From Prolixibacteraceae bacterium (GTDB taxonomy: Bacteria > Bacteroidota > Bacteroidia > Bacteroidales > Prolixibacteraceae): a DNA stretch of 64,000 nucleotides. Of the stretch, positions 8,333-56,067 are shown in pieces (position 1 is the stretch's first letter; each line of letters begins with the position of its first letter). A model generated the notes under the pieces. That model was given only the letters and a program-made list of their open reading frames with translations, was not told the DNA's origin and searched no databases. The position numbers and the translations under genes were made by a program. Location of the stretch: assembly GCA_019459525.1 (NCBI GenBank), contig JAIBEY010000049.1, positions 1-64,000 on the forward strand. The letters run 5' to 3'.

Positions 8333-8730
8333 CAGGTTAAACTATACTTTATCCAAACTTTTCTACCTCCATCAGAATAACTCATTTCATCAGAAAGCTG
8401 ACGAATAAAAAAAATCCCCCTACCCTTCTCGTTCATTAAATTCGTAGGATTCGTAGGATCTTTTATACAATCAATACAAAAACCTTTACCTTCATCAACA
8501 ATTTCAACACTGAGCTGACATTCATTTGAAACAACATGAATATAAACCCTCTTGTTTACGTCAAACTTATTTCCATGAATAATGGCATTAGATAAAGCTT
8601 CACTAACGCCTAAAAAAATACGGTTAAAATAAGTCCTGTTCAGATTCGATTCAGTAAAAATCTCATCTAAAAACAACCTCACCCGATTAATATGACTGAG
8701 TTGCGAAGGTATAACCAAAAAATGCTCCAA
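8332..8730 (-). CDS. RsbW-like anti-sigma/serine kinase ATPase
   Basis: A 132-residue single-domain GHKL ATPase of the RsbW/SpoIIAB type. The N box is visible as GVSEALSNAIIHGN (about 42-55), the G1 box as VDEGKGF (about 97-103) and the G2 box as NEKGRGIFFIRQL (about 114-126). No transmembrane segment or receiver partner is fused to it. In Bacteroidota this gene often sits just upstream of ybeY; its partner protein is unknown. Two bases separate it from the DUF4175 gene and it overlaps ybeY by one base. Confidence 0.85.
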   Translation of the reverse strand: MEHFLVIPSQLSHINRVRLFLDEIFTESNLNRTYFNRIFLGVSEALSNAIIHGNKFDVNKRVYIHVVSNECQLSVEIVDEGKGFCIDCIKDPTNPTNLMNEKGRGIFFIRQLSDEMSYSDGGRKVWIKYSLT

Positions 8731-8732
8731 AT

Positions 8733-11700
8733 TTAATTCTTTATCTGGTTTATAAACTGATTGTATTTCTGGTCATAAAAAGACCGCAATTTATAATTAT
8801 TTCGCTTAATTAATTCATTTTCAATACCCTGCTTATTTTTATACTCAAAATAACCAACCGGATTTGTTTTCTTTAATTCAATAGCCGTTTTTGACTCACG
8901 CTTTTCTTCAAAATCGCGTTCTATTTCAGATTTTTCAGCATCCAATAGCTTTGATAAAATCAAATTCTGACGATTGATCAACTCTGAACTAATATTACGG
9001 TTAATTAAATCTTTACGCGATTGTTCCAATAACTGATCAATTGCTTTTAACTGCTCACCTGCTTTCGAACCAACAGATTTACCATTTAGCATTTCCCTTA
9101 TCATTTGCTGCATCATTTCTTGTTGTGCCAGCGTTTGACCAATACCTTTACTCATTTTACCCTTATCGCCTTTCTTCATTTGGTCAATCATCTGTTGCAA
9201 TTGCTCCTTCATCGAACTCTGACTATCTTTCAGTTTTTGCAAACCGGGTTTCGTACCTTTTCCTCCTGGCTTGTCACAATCACCATCTCCTTCCTGAGAC
9301 TCATTTTGTTGCTTTTTAATGTTCTCAATAGCTTCAGATAAAAATAACGACAAATTATTTGCAGCAGTAATACTGTATTGCTGATACATTCCGGAGCCTC
9401 CAATATTTCCCAGTTCCAAACTTTCAAAAGCAGAACTGCTGCTTTTTTCCAACGCCAATATTTCCTTATTAATAACCGAACTTATTTCCGGCACTCGTTT
9501 CGATAAAGCATACAACGAATCTTTAATAAACACCACTTGTCCGTTCAGGTTCTTTTGCTTCAGTTTTAATTCATTGATTATTGGATTATTATAATCCATA
9601 CCACTTAGCTTCTTCAATAACTTTTCCTGATCGAAAGAAACAAAAATTAAGTTATCAAGTATCTGTTTTAAATCTTCGATATTAGCCTGATTTTGCTTTT
9701 TCTTATTATTCTTCAACATCTGATCCATTGCAAAAACCAATTCATCAATGTTTTTTATATTATTTTCAATTCCTGTTGAAGTTTTACGCTTATTCCCTTT
9801 AGCAGAATCATCTAAAATACTGGAGATATTATCCTTAATATTTTTAAATTCCCGATCAAAATTGAGCAAATTCATGGGTTTTTCAATGGTCTTATTCAAT
9901 TCAACCGCTCCGTTATAATCATTCTCCAGATTTTTAATTAATTCCAGATTTTCGCGTTCAATAACATTTGTTTGTTTTAAATCTGAAACACGTTCAATAT
10001 TCTGATTATTAATTCGTTCGTCTTCAGCAAGTTTAGAAAGTCCATCTATCACGCGCTCAATTTTTTGTTCAACCTTCATTTTCTTTAACAATTGCATATT
10101 TTTATCCAATTGTTTCGAAAGATCATCCATCTTTAAATCCATATCTTTCGAGAGTTGATCGAATTTTTTAGTGTCAAATTTTTTAGCCAGCTCATTAAAC
10201 TCTTCAAACAACTTTTTCAAATCATCACTAAAAACTTCATTCAATAATTCTTCAATTTGTTTTTGTTTCTCTATCAATTCCTCCTTTTCTTCCGAAAACG
10301 AATTCATGAAATTGTTGGCATCCTTATTTTGCTGACTAATCTGTTTTAATACATTTTCCAACTCATTCTTTTTATTCATGATATCCTTCACCGTTTGAAA
10401 CTTCTCCCATTCCGAAACTTCTGAACTAATTTGCTTCATTTTGAAATTTTCAAATTCGTTTTGGATTTCTTCAGTCAATCTCGAACTTTTTTCGAATAAT
10501 TGATCCATGGCATTCAAATCAGAATCCTCCTTCGATGTAATTTCTTTATAATCAGGAAACTCAAAAGAAAAAGTTTCACTAATCGTACGTTTAAAATGAT
10601 TCAGATAATCATTATCAGAAACAGAAAAGTAATATTTGAGTGACTTACCTAGTCCCTTAACCGATTCAAAATTAAACGAATAATAAAAATCCTGATTCAA
10701 AAAGAACGGAGTGAACGGGATTTTAATAATGGTATCATTTCCGTTACTGCCAACATTAAAATCAAGTTGATTAAATCCGTAATCATCAATAATAGTTCCT
10801 TTAAAATGTAAAACTTTAAAATCAAGCGAGTCACGAATCTGTGCAACTTTAATTTCAGGGAAAAGATCAGGTACAACTTTAATTTTATACACTAAAACAT
10901 TATCATCCTTCAATTTCTCATTCTTTATGGCAATACTGTAATCCAGGTCAGAATGAATAACCTTAGTAATTTCAAACCTATTACCGTTCTTCAAACCGGC
11001 TGTTTTTGTGCTATCGTTCCATAAAATAAACAAACTATCGGTATCAACCGAATTAAAAATCCATTTTACGGTACTACCTGAAGCCATAGTCAAATCACCA
11101 ATATTCTGAAGCTTTTCAACACTCCTGTTGGTATAAGAAGGTGGTTGTATTTCAACAGCAAACGATGAAATAAAAGGTTTATTCAGTACTGAAATTTTAT
11201 ACACATCCGAAACATACTTTTTATCAGTAAAATATACTGATATTGAACTATTTATATTCTCAATAGTATATAAAAAAGATCCGTTTTCATTCCTCATCAA
11301 AAAATTATTACCGGCAATATTTACATACATCACTTCGGGAATTTCTTTTCCCCGGCAAATCAGATTTAACTCAACTGATTCACCCATAACAATTTCCAAA
11401 TCACTATTCTGAAGCTCAAAAGAAAAAGGAGCAGGTTTTTCAAAGCGTTGCTGGAAATGAATCAAACGAACAGAACTTTCAGCAAAAAAATCGGGAACTT
11501 TAATAAAAACCAGAGCAAAGAGCAATACAACACCAACCAACGATACAAAAACTACTTTTAAATCTTTAAAACGAATGGCATCGGTAAACCTGAATAGTTT
11601 TAATTCATCAATTTTCTGATCTATACTGGCATTTTTCAACTCAAGCGAATAAACCGAATCCGATTCGTTAGCCAATTCAACGATATTAATAAGTTTATCC

Positions 11701-51129: not shown

Positions 51130-51231
51130 ACAAATTACAAATCCAGAAAATAAAATGCTGATTTGCCAGCCTTTGGACGGCAAACCGGCATTGGAGACTA
51201 CTTGCTCTAGTGCATATTTGGTAAAGCAGGT
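51130..51231. repeat. hairpin repeat unit 1 (after small membrane peptide 2)
   Basis: About 100 bp similar to 51479-51577. On the minus strand it contains stem AATGCCGGTTTGCC with GGCAAATCAGCATT (complement of 51154-51192, one mismatch and one wobble) followed by TTATTTT, so it can act as a terminator for the peptide cassette. Shared blocks are GCCAGCCTTTGGA, GGCAAACCGGCAT and GTAAGCAGGT-like ends. Confidence 0.65.
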
Positions 51232-51296: not shown

Positions 51297-51431
51297 TTAG
51301 AATAGATTACTAACGAAATTCTTAAATAAATCCCAATTTGAAAAAAATAAATATGATAAAAATACTGTCAATAAAATAACTAACAGGTTAATTTTGTCCT
51401 TCTTGATTTTAATTTTTTCTTTAGTCTCCAT
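51297..51431 (-). CDS. small membrane peptide 2 (44 aa)
   Basis: Found by reading the minus strand; too short for routine calling. A lysine-rich N-terminus (METKEKIKIKKDK) precedes one hydrophobic helix (about 14-30) and a short C-terminal amphipathic segment NWDLFKNFVSNLF. It is a paralogue of the 43-aa peptide at 51673 (same layout of Lys-rich start, helix, and W-D/E-x-x-K). No leader GG motif. Could be an immunity protein, chaperone or part of the peptide product. Confidence 0.5.
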   Translation of the reverse strand: METKEKIKIKKDKINLLVILLTVFLSYLFFSNWDLFKNFVSNLF

Positions 51432-51478
51432 TTTCGTTTTTTAGATAAAAATACATAATAATGATCACTACAGCCGGA

Positions 51479-51577
51479 TTACAAATCGCAGAACAAAAAA
51501 ATGCTGATTACGTGCCAGCCTTTGGATGGCAAACCGGCATCAGCGACTTTTGGCTTTGGTGCATCAGGTAAGCAGGT
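51479..51577. repeat. hairpin repeat unit 2 (after small membrane peptide 1)
   Basis: Second copy of the ~100-bp unit. On the minus strand its hairpin (complement of 51501-51541) is followed by TTTTTTTG (complement of 51493-51500), a good intrinsic terminator. Together with copy 1 it shows that peptide gene plus hairpin was duplicated as a cassette. Confidence 0.65.
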
Positions 51578-51672
51578 TCTATTGCAATATAATTGGGATA
51601 CAAATCGGTAGCTAAGTATTTCTTACGAGATAATATTCAATACTTATTCAAGTTAAAGCTGTAATCGCTTTT

Positions 51673-51804
51673 CTAAAATCCAAACAAAAATTGTTTGATT
51701 TCTTCCCAATATCCAAAAATATATTTGTAAAAAATAAGAAAAGTGATGAGAATAATAATAATTCTCACAATCTCCTTTTGTTTGTTTTTAATAAGTACTT
51801 TCAT
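51673..51804 (-). CDS. small membrane peptide 1 (43 aa)
   Basis: A 43-residue ORF read on the minus strand: basic N-terminus MKVLIKNKQKEIVR, one hydrophobic helix (about 15-31) and a C-terminal tail YWEEIKQFLFGF. Its layout matches the second small peptide (44 aa), and the W(D/E)-x-x-K tail is also present in the 46-aa double-glycine peptide (WDDFKEGFF). No GG leader. The two peptides likely arose by duplication. Confidence 0.5.
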   Translation of the reverse strand: MKVLIKNKQKEIVRIIIILITFLIFYKYIFGYWEEIKQFLFGF

Positions 51805-51845
51805 ACGATAAGTTGAAATTAAATAAACCTTTGATATATTTCAAT

Positions 51846-51885
51846 AACTGGCATGAAGTTAGATAATTTTTACTTCATGCCAGTT
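51846..51885. other. strong hairpin downstream of double-glycine peptide 2
   Basis: A perfect 14-bp stem, AACTGGCATGAAGT (51846-51859) and ACTTCATGCCAGTT (51872-51885), with a 12-nt loop. It lies between peptide 2 and the membrane peptides. No T-run on the minus strand, so it may stabilise the precursor mRNA 3' end. Confidence 0.6.
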
Positions 51886-51898
51886 GGATTAGAGTTTA

Positions 51899-52060
51899 TT
51901 AATGTGTAGCGTAAAAAACAACATATTGAGTAACAGCATCAGCACATCCTCCTGAGGTTAAGAAATTACCATTAATGCTATTACCCAAAAACCAACCAAT
52001 ATCAAAACCAAACGAGCCACCGTTAATTTTTTGATAATCATCTTTATTAATATCTTTCAT
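51899..52060 (-). CDS. double-glycine leader peptide 2 (53 aa)
   Basis: Read directly from the minus strand. The 15-residue leader MKDINKDDYQKINGG ends with the GG cleavage motif, and the mature 38 residues (SFGFDIGWFLG... to ...VVFYATH) are Gly- and aromatic-rich with a single Cys in SGGCAD. Such peptides are cut by C39 peptidase-ABC exporters, and one lies 0.8 kb upstream. It may be a bacteriocin, signal, or modified peptide; no modification enzyme is nearby. Confidence 0.72.
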   Translation of the reverse strand: MKDINKDDYQKINGGSFGFDIGWFLGNSINGNFLTSGGCADAVTQYVVFYATH

Positions 52061-52083
52061 AATTTTAAATGTTTAAATTGTAA

Positions 52084-52224
52084 TTAAAAAGCACCAAAAA
52101 AACCTTCTTTAAAATCGTCCCAATCCTTTATTATTCCAGCTACAGCAGCAATAATAATTCCAGCCACAACTGGAGCAAGGCCACCATCAACCTCTATTAA
52201 CTCATTTTTTTTTAATTCTTTCAT
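52084..52224 (-). CDS. double-glycine leader peptide 1 (46 aa)
   Basis: A 46-residue precursor: leader MKELKKNELIEVDGG with the GG motif at 14-15 and a mature 31-residue peptide beginning LAPVVAGIIIAAVAGII, a GxxxG/Ala-rich hydrophobic helix, followed by KDWDDFKEGFFGAF. This is the layout of class II (unmodified) bacteriocins. It lies 23 bp upstream of peptide 2 and directly after the wHTH gene and a palindrome. Confidence 0.78.
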   Translation of the reverse strand: MKELKKNELIEVDGGLAPVVAGIIIAAVAGIIKDWDDFKEGFFGAF

Positions 52225-52280
52225 AATCTTAAAAGTATTAAAAGTCTTCCTACTCTGTTATTTAGGCTTTTCGGAATCGG

Positions 52281-52307
52281 CCTAAGTTTTTGTGCACTAA
52301 ACTTAGG
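52281..52307. promoter_or_regulatory. palindrome upstream of the peptide genes
   Basis: CCTAAGTTT (52281-52289) and AAACTTAGG (52299-52307) form a perfect 9-bp inverted repeat about 57 bp before the first peptide ATG. A second stem, GCAGAGTGC/GCACTCTGC (52322-52348), overlaps the end of the wHTH gene. They could be an operator for the wHTH protein or a terminator. Confidence 0.4.
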
Positions 52308-52317
52308 ACTAAGGTAT

Positions 52318-52635
52318 TCAGGCAGAGTGCATAAAAAAAGCACTCTGCAAATTAAAGATAGAAAAGCCACCAAAAATTTCTTTTGTTTTTTCTTTGGAGA
52401 TTATTTTAAGCGAATAACTGAGTTCAATTTCATGCCCATTAGAGAAATAGTAAGTGTTGCGTTGTTTCGAATAATCAATCTGTACACCCATTTCCCTGAA
52501 ATTGTCTAAATGTTCGTACAGCCGCCTTTTGCCTATATGCAAGTAGTTTGCAAATTCTTCCGGTGTTCCGGTTTTCTCATGCTTTATCATCTTAATGATT
52601 TGCTGAAACCTTTCCAATTGTTCGATCGCTTTCAT
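52318..52635 (-). CDS. small winged-helix regulator of the peptide cassette
   Basis: A 105-residue protein with one HTH domain (about 18-65; TGTPEEFANYLHIGKRRLYEHL) of the DeoR/HTH_11 kind and a short C-terminal part. No ligand domain. It lies between the exporter genes and the peptide genes on the same strand and is the likely regulator. It may instead sense a partner protein. Confidence 0.72.
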   Translation of the reverse strand: MKAIEQLERFQQIIKMIKHEKTGTPEEFANYLHIGKRRLYEHLDNFREMGVQIDYSKQRNTYYFSNGHEIELSYSLKIISKEKTKEIFGGFSIFNLQSAFFMHSA

Positions 52636-52674
52636 GTTTTATATGTATTAAGATATTTTTTATCAGACCTCTTT

Positions 52675-52707
52675 AGACTTGACAGGTTTCCAAAACCTGT
52701 CAAGTCT
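52675..52707. repeat. 15-bp palindrome at the exporter gene 3' end
   Basis: AGACTTGACAGGTTT (52675-52689) and AAACCTGTCAAGTCT (52693-52707) form a perfect 15-bp stem with a 3-nt loop. The ABC transporter's TGA stop (52700-52702) lies inside it. This is the shape of a dispersed extragenic palindrome. Confidence 0.65.
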
Positions 52708-54865
52708 CGAAAGTAAAACTAGGCATTTGCCTTTGCCACATGCGATAGTAATAGCCTTTTTGTGGGTACAATTGCTCGTGAGTTCCTTGCTCGGTAATTT
52801 GGCCTTCTTTGAGCACAATAATCTCGTGGGCATCAATTACAGCACTTAGGCGGTGAGCAATCAGGATCACTGTTTTGCCAGATGCTGCCAATTGCTTTAT
52901 GGTTGTTTGAACTGCCTGTTCCGATTCCGAATCGAGGTTCGAGGTAGCTTCGTCCATAATCAGGATTTCGGGCTGTCGGTACAAGGCGCGGGCAATGGCC
53001 AGTCGTTGGCGTTGTCCACCCGATAAGGTGGCTCCATGTTCGCCAATATAGGTGGCAAAACCGTTGGGTAGTTTTTCAATAAACTCAATCAAATCCAATT
53101 GTTTGCATACAGCAAAGAGCAGTTCCATGTTGGGCGCCATTTCGCCAACTGCAATGTTTTCGATCACACTTCCGGCAAACAATTCGAGGTTTTGCGGAAC
53201 AATGCCCACTAAAAGGCGAAGGCTTTCGGGACTTACATACCGAATGTTGACATCTCCTATTAAAATTTGTCCTTTGTTTAACGGATAAATGCCCTGAATG
53301 AGCGCAGCGATGGTGCTTTTGCCCGATCCGCTTTCGCCAATAATGGCAGTTAACTGGCCTTGTTTGAGCACCATGTTGAAATCTTCGAAAACATCAGTGC
53401 GTGTGCCATAGCTGAACGAAACATTGCGGAAGATAATATCTCCAAGTAAACTGGTATTGAGTTCAACCGTATGCACTATTTCGTCGTCGCGTTCCAAATC
53501 CATAATTTCGAAGAGGCGGTCGGCAGCAATTGTGGCATTTTGTATGGTTTTGTTCATGCCAATCAATGAACTTACTGGTCCGGTGAAATACCCGATAAGG
53601 GCATAAAAAGACATCAGTTCGCCGGGAGTAATGGATTGTTCAATAACCAGATAACTACCCGACCACAATAGCACGATTGTAAAAGTACGTGTAATAAGTT
53701 GTGACGCATTTCCTGTAAAAATACCGTTCAACCCCGATTTATAGGTGCTGTCGAGCAAACGCATAAAACGGGTTTCGGTTTTCAGGTTGTTAAACTCTTC
53801 AAGGTTTAATTGTTTGATGGTTTTTATGGCGTTGAGCGACTCAACCAGTTGTGTTTCCAGCTCTGCTGCGTTTTCCATAATCTTGCGTTCCCTCTTTTTA
53901 TTGAGTTGGTTGGTAATCCAATAGAGTAGGGCATACAGCGGTATTACTATTGCCATAATTAAAGCCAGTTTCATGCTGTAAATAAACATCAGTGCAAACG
54001 AAAACACGAGTATAAAAAGGTTGACCAGAATACTAATCATGGTATCGTTGATAAACGCCCTGATTTTTACCGCATCGTTGATTCGCGAAATGATTTCGCC
54101 TGTGCGCATGGTATCGAAAAAGCGTTGTGGAAGTTTAAGCAGATGTTTGTAATAACCCAAAATCAGGCGGGCATCGATCAACTGTCCGGTTTTCAGTATA
54201 AAGACGGTTTGGAGCGAACCAATTATGATTTGAAGCGCCAAAATAATCACCATACCAATGCTGAGCAGGTTTAGGAGGTTCCGGTTTCCATCGGGCAATA
54301 CAAAGTCGGTGATTTTCTGGATGTAAATGGATGTTGACAAGCCCAAAACGGTGTAAACAATAGCTCCAACCAATGCCTGAATAAGTATTTTGCGGTGCGG
54401 ATAAAGCAGGTAACGAAACCGGGCTATAACCGGCACTTTTTCGTTACGGGCTGTAAATTCCTGATTGGGCGATAGCATGATAAGTATACCGGTCCATTCT
54501 TCGGCAAATTCAGCATGTGTTTTCTTATGCAGTTGCCCATCGCCCGGATCCATGATCTCGACATAATCTTTGGTGAACTTGTAAACAACCACATAGTGTT
54601 GCAAAACTTTTTTCAGAATCACATGGGCAATGGCCGGAAGTGGAACTTCGCTCATGGCCTCCAGTTCGCCTTTTACTCCTTTGGCCGAAAAACCCAATTT
54701 TTCGGCTGCTTTGATGAGTCCCCAGGCATTGGTTCCCTTTTTATCGGTTCCGGCCCATTGCCTGATGCGGGCAATAGGAATTTTTAGGTTGTAATGTGCT
54801 GAAACCGATGCCAGACAGGCTGCACCGCAATCGGTAATATCATGTTGTTTTATTTTTATAGACAT
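52700..54865 (-). CDS. peptidase-containing ABC transporter (C39, PCAT)
   Basis: About 721 residues. Domain order: C39 double-glycine peptidase (about 1-135; catalytic Cys in ITDCGAACLAS, His in HYVVVYKF, Asp in IMDPGDG), ABC transmembrane domain (about 150-440), ABC ATPase (about 470-715; Walker A GESGSGKST, signature LSGGQRQRLAIARAL, Walker B ILIMDEATSNLD, H-loop IAHR). It would cleave GG leaders and export the peptides. ATG at 54865 is chosen because the peptidase begins there; a TTG at 54922 that overlaps the HlyD stop by 4 bp is the alternative. Confidence 0.93.
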   Translation of the reverse strand: MSIKIKQHDITDCGAACLASVSAHYNLKIPIARIRQWAGTDKKGTNAWGLIKAAEKLGFSAKGVKGELEAMSEVPLPAIAHVILKKVLQHYVVVYKFTKDYVEIMDPGDGQLHKKTHAEFAEEWTGILIMLSPNQEFTARNEKVPVIARFRYLLYPHRKILIQALVGAIVYTVLGLSTSIYIQKITDFVLPDGNRNLLNLLSIGMVIILALQIIIGSLQTVFILKTGQLIDARLILGYYKHLLKLPQRFFDTMRTGEIISRINDAVKIRAFINDTMISILVNLFILVFSFALMFIYSMKLALIMAIVIPLYALLYWITNQLNKKRERKIMENAAELETQLVESLNAIKTIKQLNLEEFNNLKTETRFMRLLDSTYKSGLNGIFTGNASQLITRTFTIVLLWSGSYLVIEQSITPGELMSFYALIGYFTGPVSSLIGMNKTIQNATIAADRLFEIMDLERDDEIVHTVELNTSLLGDIIFRNVSFSYGTRTDVFEDFNMVLKQGQLTAIIGESGSGKSTIAALIQGIYPLNKGQILIGDVNIRYVSPESLRLLVGIVPQNLELFAGSVIENIAVGEMAPNMELLFAVCKQLDLIEFIEKLPNGFATYIGEHGATLSGGQRQRLAIARALYRQPEILIMDEATSNLDSESEQAVQTTIKQLAASGKTVILIAHRLSAVIDAHEIIVLKEGQITEQGTHEQLYPQKGYYYRMWQRQMPSFTFET

Positions 54866-54918
54866 AGTAGTATTTTCGATTGTGTGGTTTGAACTTACAT
54901 CAGTAGATGGATAAATAG

Positions 54919-56067
54919 TCAATGTTTAATAATTTTAGGATTTAACCAGTCATCAGCCTTGTCGAACAGTAATTCGTATAAACTCCTTCGATTTATCATA
55001 AACCTAGAAGTCAGCGTTAACCCATTTTTCAATTTGCCCTGATAACCTGATTTCAGGGAAAGGCAATCCTGATTTAACTTACATTTTACCTTAAAATACA
55101 CCGATTCCTTTTCCTGATAAGGTTGGTTCGAAATGTCAATAATCTCGCCTGAAGCCAATCCCCATTGATTATAGTTGTAAGCATCGACCTGAAATGTTGC
55201 GGATTTGCTTTTTTGCAGATAACCAATATCTTTTGGGCTCACAAAACATTCTACAATCAGGCTATCGGACGGAGTTATGGTTGCAATAGTTTGGTTTGGA
55301 AAGATAAAACTACCCATTTGTACACCGGTAAAATTTGAAATATAACCATTGGCAGGGGCAATCACCACGTAAAAACGTTCTTCAAACCGAAGTTGATCAC
55401 GGTTGTCGGTAAGCGATTGAATTTCGGTTTTGTATTGAAACAGTTGCTGGTGCCAGTTTGCCTTTTTTTGGCTAGTATAAAAATCGTGTTCTTTGATGAG
55501 TTGATTCAATTCCAACTCTTTTTTCTCAAAGTCGGCGACAGCAATGACTTCTTTTTCGAACAACGATTTGGTGCGCTGAAAATCTTTACTGGCAGTTTCA
55601 AGCCTCAACTGGTATTCTTTTAACTTCTGATTGAATTCTAGAGAACTACTTTGCAACAATTCACTTTGAATAGAGGTATTCCGGCCGCTTGTCAAATTTT
55701 CAAGGTCGCGTATATAAACTGAATACAATTCGATTTTATCTTCAAGCATCCGTAATTGGTCATCAATTTTTTCAGGAGCTAACCATATTAAGGTATCGCC
55801 AACCGTAACCTTCATGTTTTCGCGGATGTGGATTTTTTGTACTTGCCCTGTAACTGGAGCCTGAATACTAGTTGGTTCAGTTTGCGAACGGATAATTCCG
55901 CGGGATTGAACCGTAATGTCAAGCATCAGAAAAGGAAGGGAAATTAAGAAAGCAAAAGCCATTCCGATCAACAAAAGATAAATTACATCCGATTGTCGTG
56001 AAAAGTTTGAATAGTGATTTTCTATGGAAAACCGGACGATTTCTTTGGGAAAAATTGTCTGTTTCAT
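54919..56067 (-). CDS. HlyD-family membrane-fusion protein
   Basis: A 382-residue adaptor: cytoplasmic N-terminus, one transmembrane helix (about 28-50), lipoyl/barrel-sandwich halves (about 65-95 and 230-260), a long coiled-coil hairpin (about 100-220) and beta domain. It links the PCAT exporter to an outer-membrane channel; no TolC-like gene is in the window. The stop overlaps the alternative TTG start of the exporter gene. First gene of the cassette. Confidence 0.9.
   Translation of the reverse strand: MKQTIFPKEIVRFSIENHYSNFSRQSDVIYLLLIGMAFAFLISLPFLMLDITVQSRGIIRSQTEPTSIQAPVTGQVQKIHIRENMKVTVGDTLIWLAPEKIDDQLRMLEDKIELYSVYIRDLENLTSGRNTSIQSELLQSSSLEFNQKLKEYQLRLETASKDFQRTKSLFEKEVIAVADFEKKELELNQLIKEHDFYTSQKKANWHQQLFQYKTEIQSLTDNRDQLRFEERFYVVIAPANGYISNFTGVQMGSFIFPNQTIATITPSDSLIVECFVSPKDIGYLQKSKSATFQVDAYNYNQWGLASGEIIDISNQPYQEKESVYFKVKCKLNQDCLSLKSGYQGKLKNGLTLTSRFMINRRSLYELLFDKADDWLNPKIIKH

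Follow-up and report, generated by a model that had tools for sequence, protein, structure and literature searches.

A winged helix-turn-helix protein with a C-terminal double-glycine leader as a candidate exporter-sensing regulator of a Bacteroidota peptide cassette

Here, we describe a double-glycine (GG) peptide export cassette in a 64,000-nt stretch of DNA (the window) from a Prolixibacteraceae bacterium (GenBank assembly GCA_019459525.1, contig JAIBEY010000049.1, positions 1 to 64,000) and propose that its small winged helix-turn-helix (wHTH) protein is a local regulator of the GG-peptide genes, probably a repressor, that interacts with the C39 exporter of the same cassette by docking or by being cleaved, such that peptide production would follow export capacity. 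We give this proposal an even chance of being right. The initial annotation had taken the wHTH gene for an ordinary neighbour, but it is the unusual part of the cassette. The protein ends in a GG leader of its own (KIISKEKTKEIFGG) and a tail of 15 amino acids, the tail codons contain an inverted repeat with promoter-like boxes, and residues of the predicted recognition helix match bases of the predicted operator.

In the proposed mechanism, the cassette would make and export a pair of bacteriocin-like GG peptides. A wHTH dimer would bind the inverted repeat, which would span the -33 box of a GG-peptide promoter that overlaps the wHTH gene at its 3' end. With exporter sites free, the C39 domain would dock on the GG leader of the regulator or cut off its short tail, the wHTH protein would leave the DNA and the peptide genes would be switched on. 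New peptides would then compete for the exporter sites, whereupon the regulator would re-bind and close the genes. Because the predicted site lies over the -33 box, a repressor is most likely rather than an activator. We infer DNA binding, recognition and cutting by C39, and release from the DNA upon docking or cutting from sequence patterns, which suggest a link between peptide production and the exporter. It is tempting to extend the proposal to a Bacteroidota-wide type of exporter-sensing regulator, in which the C39 peptidase-transporter would read a C-terminal leader and thereby allow its own cargo to be made, while the operator would sit in the tail codons and a two-residue code would separate neighbouring systems; to this generalization we give slightly less than even credence.

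The GG leader is a regular feature of wHTH proteins encoded near related exporters. Loci were chosen by an exporter scan of genomes (80 kept of 146) and not by GG, and in a second step an HTH-only profile search of these loci returned 40 wHTH proteins in 37 loci. GG or AG stands near the C-terminus of 38 of the 40, mostly at residue 88-91, and is followed by tails of 10-27 amino acids; the two proteins without it are second copies (L047 and L061), and each of the 37 loci encodes at least one wHTH protein with this ending (GG in 34, AG in three). The full leader pattern was present in 34 of the 40 proteins as compared to 0.9% of shuffled C-termini, while any GG occurred in 10% of the shuffles. 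The window protein ends in SLKIISKEKTKEIFGG followed by FSIFNLQSAFFMHSA, and its paralogue on contig C23 in FRKELSYNELQKVNGG followed by 20 amino acids. In an AlphaFold model the protein is confidently predicted to about residue 70, with helices 2-18, 25-31, and 36-48 and a two-stranded wing, and the GG end is disordered. The best fold matches were BirA/NiaR-type wHTH domains (PDB 9ebr, 1j5y, 2ewn), none at E<=0.001 (9ebr: E 0.013, TM-score by query 0.49). HTH_11 matched 21 of 36 wHTH members at E<=0.01, and Pfam and NCBIfam scans of these 36 returned only HTH-type or chance matches.

C39 leaders follow a rule of hydrophobic residues at -12, -7, and -4 and an acidic residue at -8 or -9 ahead of GG, with -7 usually hydrophobic in the substrates. 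The regulator leaders have hydrophobic residues at -12 and -4 and an acidic residue at -8. Position -7, however, is hydrophobic in only 0.75 of 32 regulators as compared to 0.98 of 43 peptides (the -4 and -7 values of the peptides being partly fixed by the selection criteria), and -3 is F or Y in 13/32 regulators and 0/43 peptides, features that would suit docking on, or slow cutting by, C39. A K or R at -3 is apparently shared by regulator and peptide leaders in some loci, as was noticed post hoc.

A match to the family was found in 52 of 295 genomes in an order-wide survey, from which 61 members (20 GG-tailed, 41 GG-less) were kept. Members with less than 40 bits to the HTH profile, with more than 200 amino acids or without a complete open reading frame (ORF) in the region were dropped, and 18 places at E 1.4e-5 or weaker outside the retrieved regions were left out. 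A same-strand C39 exporter no farther than 6 kb away accompanied 11/20 GG-tailed versus 8/41 GG-less members (p 0.008), and at a limit of 300 bp the numbers were 5/20 versus 0/41 (p 0.003), both uncorrected for kinship. These data also bear on a different explanation, namely that the GG end is unrelated to C39 and is a flexible terminus, or serves dimerization or degradation, in an ordinary local repressor or activator. Such a role agrees with the nine of 20 GG-tailed members for which no C39 exporter was seen inside 6 kb (in part on contigs that stop close by), with the predicted operator sites of GG-less members (see below), and with the deviating residues at -7 and -3. It is at odds with the presence of GG or AG in nearly all members beside this exporter type, together with the hydrophobic -12/-4 and acidic -8 positions, and with the restriction of immediate C39 adjacency to GG-tailed members, and we consider it rather unlikely.

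GG-tailed wHTH genes also occur at clusters that we read as lanthipeptide-like (L130, L133) and at other GG-peptide clusters (L150, L165), which suggests that the predicted regulator type extends beyond unmodified peptides. In L130 and L133, the wHTH gene is flanked on one side by precursors with leaders of the type ..NVKGG/..SVKGG and on the other by genes with the ending WDECLLLS, which we take to be LanC-like.

Leader and tail of the regulator evolve differently. Pooled synonymous divergence (dS) among 12 Flavobacterium wHTH genes was 1.63, 0.76, and 0.23 for HTH part, leader, and tail, with ratios of nonsynonymous to synonymous divergence (dN/dS) of 0.10, 0.20, and 0.63, respectively, a pattern implying conservation of the leader at the protein level and of the tail mainly at the DNA level. 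Alternatively, the wHTH protein could itself be a precursor from which C39 cuts at GG and secretes the 10-27-amino-acid tail as a pheromone, the HTH part being a long leader or co-regulator. The leader pattern is of a suitable kind for this, and the tail is indeed nearly constant within Flavobacterium. However, its synonymous sites are frozen as well, such that the constancy is explained by a DNA element, which weakens the case for a conserved secreted peptide; moreover, genera with different operator classes also differ in tail sequence, and further copies of the inverted repeat lie beyond the wHTH gene. A tail pheromone thus appears unlikely.

The DNA element in the tail codons has the makings of a promoter with an operator. 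Bacteroidota-type promoters carry a -33 box, and in the window a candidate for it lies in the spacer of the repeat (Table 1), with transcription predicted to start near 52304. PMC9723704 gives TAnnTTTG as the flavobacterial -7 box. Repeats centred on TTTA/TTTG and followed by TAnnTT(T/A)(G/A) at -33/-7 spacing were found in 24 of 60 tails (0.42 expected) and in none of 60 HTH control windows; with one Flavobacterium kept, the count was 14/49 as compared to 0.35 expected. The tails also contain inverted repeats and fold better than controls (mean z -1.66 for 60 tails, 25 of them at p<=0.05, versus -0.32 for 154 controls), as would befit an RNA stem-loop, i.e., an attenuator or processing site, instead of a protein-binding DNA site. 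Yet the spacer is fixed at 9 nt and holds the -33-like box, and the arm bases track recognition-helix residues, which makes the RNA explanation very improbable.

Copies of the element also occur outside the wHTH gene, some of them ahead of other GG-peptide genes. Seven of 14 examined copies lay within 330 nt of a GG ORF under a strict rule, which 4.9% of random positions satisfied. Among the others, one has a GG ORF at 352 nt, those in L056, L061, and L071 have one only by a looser list, and for three no GG ORF was seen; the count leaves out copies in second wHTH genes (e.g., L124, L132, C23). In Marinifilum, AGTCCAAGTTTATTGGACT is common to the regulator tail and the DNA ahead of a peptide pair of the kind found in the window, and Flavobacterium has the same 17-nt core.

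The predicted recognition of DNA by the wHTH protein through a residue/base code is well supported by sequence comparison. Predicted half-sites read [G/C]T[G/C]Y and are separated by 9 nt. Base 1 tracks residue 36 and base 3 residue 37, in both cases with G for R/K and C otherwise, and in the wHTH model the recognition helix begins with these two residues. As automated selection of the top inverted repeat in some cases picked an AT-rich one, the final test was made on one fixed pattern. Of 60 GG-tailed proteins, 32 have a perfect site in the predicted class and none has one in the other three (18 versus 0 in the non-redundant set of 42); for 43 GG-less proteins the counts were 5 and 1. The code was fixed in writing and then applied to further genomes of the class, where predicted and other classes numbered 5 and 0 for 15 GG-tailed and 7 and 2 for 36 GG-less proteins. 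Without the near-duplicate L219 this amounts to 11 versus 2 (binomial p 1.1e-5, permutation 0/20000). The further set includes L247 and L263, which hold the same two GG-less genes with no site in either, and L223, apparently the same protein as L058, also with no site. Several GG-less sites in these genomes are located 2-13 nt past the stop codon. In the pooled discovery and further sets, 50 proteins had exactly one site class, and each of the two residues agreed with its base in 49.

Several observations weigh against the proposed regulator and its code or limit the evidence for them. For 28 of the 60 GG-tailed proteins, none of the four site classes is represented by a perfect match, and both the code and the promoter-box pattern were drawn up after the discovery sequences had been viewed. 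The core GTGY-N9-RCAC is not unusual in the window alone (3 matches versus 1.7 expected). When placed on a tree, the residue/base link is represented by one supported pair only, and the link between GG and exporter by only three, for which a sign test was uninformative. No such wHTH gene was present in the stretch searched at 43 of the 80 exporter loci, some of whose contigs end nearby, and L136 and L171, with GG-tailed wHTH genes, show neither exporter nor GG peptide. Regulator and peptide leaders were no more similar within than between loci (p 0.25), and their co-variation within a locus is therefore not supported. The window leader has T at -7, while its C23 paralogue fits the leader rule, and the -7 box of the window differs from the consensus by one base. 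On C23, the promoter-type match is another, AT-rich repeat instead of the CTCT operator, and one of the further peptide modules has no perfect CTCT copy.

Table 1 Features of the peptide cassette and its predicted control region in the window
Feature	Position	Strand	Remarks
HlyD-type periplasmic adaptor, 382 aa	54919-56067	-	HlyD_3 above cut-off
C39 peptidase/ABC exporter, 721 aa from likely ATG start 54865	52700-54922	-	TIGR01193, Pfam Peptidase_C39
wHTH regulator (candidate), 105 aa	52318-52635	-	GG = residues 89-90, then 15-aa tail
27-nt inverted repeat GCAGAGTGC-N9-GCACTCTGC within wHTH tail codons	52322-52348		z -5.42
Predicted operator, core GTGC-N9-GCAC	52327-52343		
Predicted promoter-like boxes	52309-52335	-	TTTA -33 at 52332-52335 in repeat spacer
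Predicted -7-like box TACCTTAG	52309-52316	-	one base off TAnnTTTG
Palindrome CCTAAGTTTAGTGCACAAAAACTTAGG, 27 bp	52281-52307		4 copies in genome
Rfam DUF805b element RF02914	52247-52284	-	42.5 bits, gathering cut-off 35.6
GG precursor A, 46 aa, hydrophobic helix with end DWDDFKEGFFGAF	52084-52224	-	TIGR03949
GG precursor B, 53 aa, start SFGFDIG.., one Cys	51899-52060	-	
14-bp perfect stem-loop, terminator-like, after peptide genes	51846-51885		z -7.78
Leaderless hydrophobic ORF, 43 aa, end YWEEIKQFLFGF	51673-51804	-	candidate immunity protein
Leaderless hydrophobic ORF, 44 aa, end NWDLFKNFVSNLF	51297-51431	-	candidate immunity protein

The remainder of the cassette largely bears out the initial annotation. 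HlyD adaptor, C39-ABC exporter, wHTH gene and two GG precursors are all encoded on the minus strand (Table 1), and the precursor leaders carry GG at residues 14-15 as originally quoted. The reading as a GG-peptide export system is well supported, since the domain matches agree with it and relatives have retained the exporter along with GG peptides. The peptides themselves may be bacteriocins or signals. The exporter scored 552.1 bits with TIGR01193 (cut-off 523.85; residues 26-729; NCBIfam scan) and also passed Pfam Peptidase_C39. Its Cys32, His109, and Asp125 (numbered from a TTG start), presumably the catalytic residues of the peptidase, are kept in 1.00, 1.00, and 0.97 of 74 aligned relatives. 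The adaptor passed the HlyD_3 cut-off, with TIGR01843 (131.7 bits) staying below its cut-off of 208.65. The label 'unannotated' is not quite right, as precursor A passes the NCBI bacteriocin model TIGR03949 (class IIb bacteriocin lactobin A/cerein 7B; 33.4 versus a cut-off of 21.5 bits). For precursor B, no Pfam or NCBIfam family matched at E<=1. The regulator's GG leader, the inverted repeat with its promoter-like boxes, the DUF805b element, and the two hydrophobic ORFs had not figured in the first reading.

The idea that both peptides form a two-component pair gains support from their recurrence. A peptides (..DWxxFKxG..) directly precede B peptides (..FAYDVG../..FGFDIG..) in the window, L047, L048, and L061, whereas A occurs without B in L112 and L115, according to a search of loci L044-L183, the window and L011 with patterns drawn up only once these sequences had been viewed. 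In Marinifilum (L048), the pair is followed by one hydrophobic ORF similar to the 43-amino-acid ORF of the window, and the C-termini of this ORF and of both window ORFs resemble that of A. Position and this similarity, though weak evidence, make the leaderless hydrophobic ORFs the best immunity candidates. The 44-amino-acid ORF, which sets the start coordinate 51297 of the cassette as first annotated, is flanked by 69-nt imperfect direct repeats (51147-51215 and 51496-51564, 75% alike) with a strong stem-loop core; this core had no further copy in the genome and, of 216 loci, was found only in three that overlap the window stretch. Near position 8237 of L068, an uncultured Aquimarina contig, six GG peptides that all share the leader MKELNLNELVQINGG, possibly a peptide array, lie near a GG-tailed wHTH gene.

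Two further elements lie between regulator and peptide genes, the order in the window being predicted transcript start, palindrome, and DUF805b. All four genomic copies of the palindrome CCTAAGTTTAGTGCACAAAAACTTAGG are located ahead of a GG peptide, and it is also present in L044-L047 but absent from the 246 other genomes searched within the order. DUF805b was rejected as a GG-peptide-specific element since it matched in 168/247 genomes of the order. Its core motif was found in 26 of 29 DUF805b loci by a simple pattern, and by eye two (L203, L210) lead into a GG-like peptide. It stands at a near-constant 20-29 nt before the start codon, where one was found, of very different genes (L012:1924-1958, L184-L212), suggesting a general-purpose promoter or leader element. 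Contig C23 carries a paralogous cassette with an exporter 85% identical to that of the window and three GG peptides; ahead of one of the further GG peptides, a decayed stretch has retained a CTCT-N9-AGAG site. Each further GG-peptide gene there (L011:4600-5250, 8650-9330) follows remnants of a wHTH 3' end together with palindrome and DUF805b, as if the peptide modules had been copied along with the regulator's end.

The initial annotation placed the cassette within a starch locus, and its flanks indeed encode starch utilization functions. TonB/SusC-like, SusD, SusE, SusF/E, and alpha-amylase genes were identified by domain scans on one side, and MFS transporter, GH65, and cyclomaltodextrinase genes on the other. 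Close kin share this placement, with the same transporter gene adjoining the cassette in L044 and L046 and the same LacI-type gene downstream of it in L045.

To our knowledge, little is understood of how Gram-negative bacteria match the output of exported, possibly toxic peptides to export capacity, and we know of few descriptions of local regulators of Bacteroidota GG-peptide clusters. The proposed regulator would unite DNA recognition and an export signal in one small gene. Its recognition code would allow operators, and hence overlooked GG-peptide genes, to be predicted from protein sequence, and its occurrence beside lanthipeptide-like clusters may aid genome mining across the phylum. Searches of open-access literature, which excludes most subscription journals, returned no account of a GG-tailed wHTH protein or its operator, and we provisionally regard this architecture as novel.

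The cassette resembles those of class IIb bacteriocins in its GG precursor matching TIGR03949, its TIGR01193-type C39-ABC exporter, its adaptor and its two adjacent small peptides, but differs in the Bacteroidota host and the leader-bearing regulator, with immunity ORFs that are candidates by position and weak similarity. Bacteroidetocins, as described in PMC6671954, are GG-leader peptides of Bacteroidota with at least two cysteines, encoded in loci with a transmembrane protein, the peptide, a thiol oxidoreductase and an ABC transporter with a double-glycine peptidase domain. The window shares GG-leader peptides and a peptidase-domain ABC transporter with them, but its cassette comprises HlyD, wHTH and two peptides, precursor A has no cysteine and B only one, and the word 'regulator' is absent from the main text of PMC6671954. 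The modelled wHTH protein has a wHTH fold and resembles the DNA-binding domains of BirA/NiaR-type proteins, yet in place of a ligand-binding or ligase domain it carries a C-terminal GG leader. The closest parallel in proposed logic may be offered by FlgM of flagella, an export-coupled regulator. In both cases the activity of the regulator would follow the state of an export machine, a coupling that is predicted here, but the machine is a different one and the candidate regulator is a DNA-binding protein with a C-terminal peptide leader.

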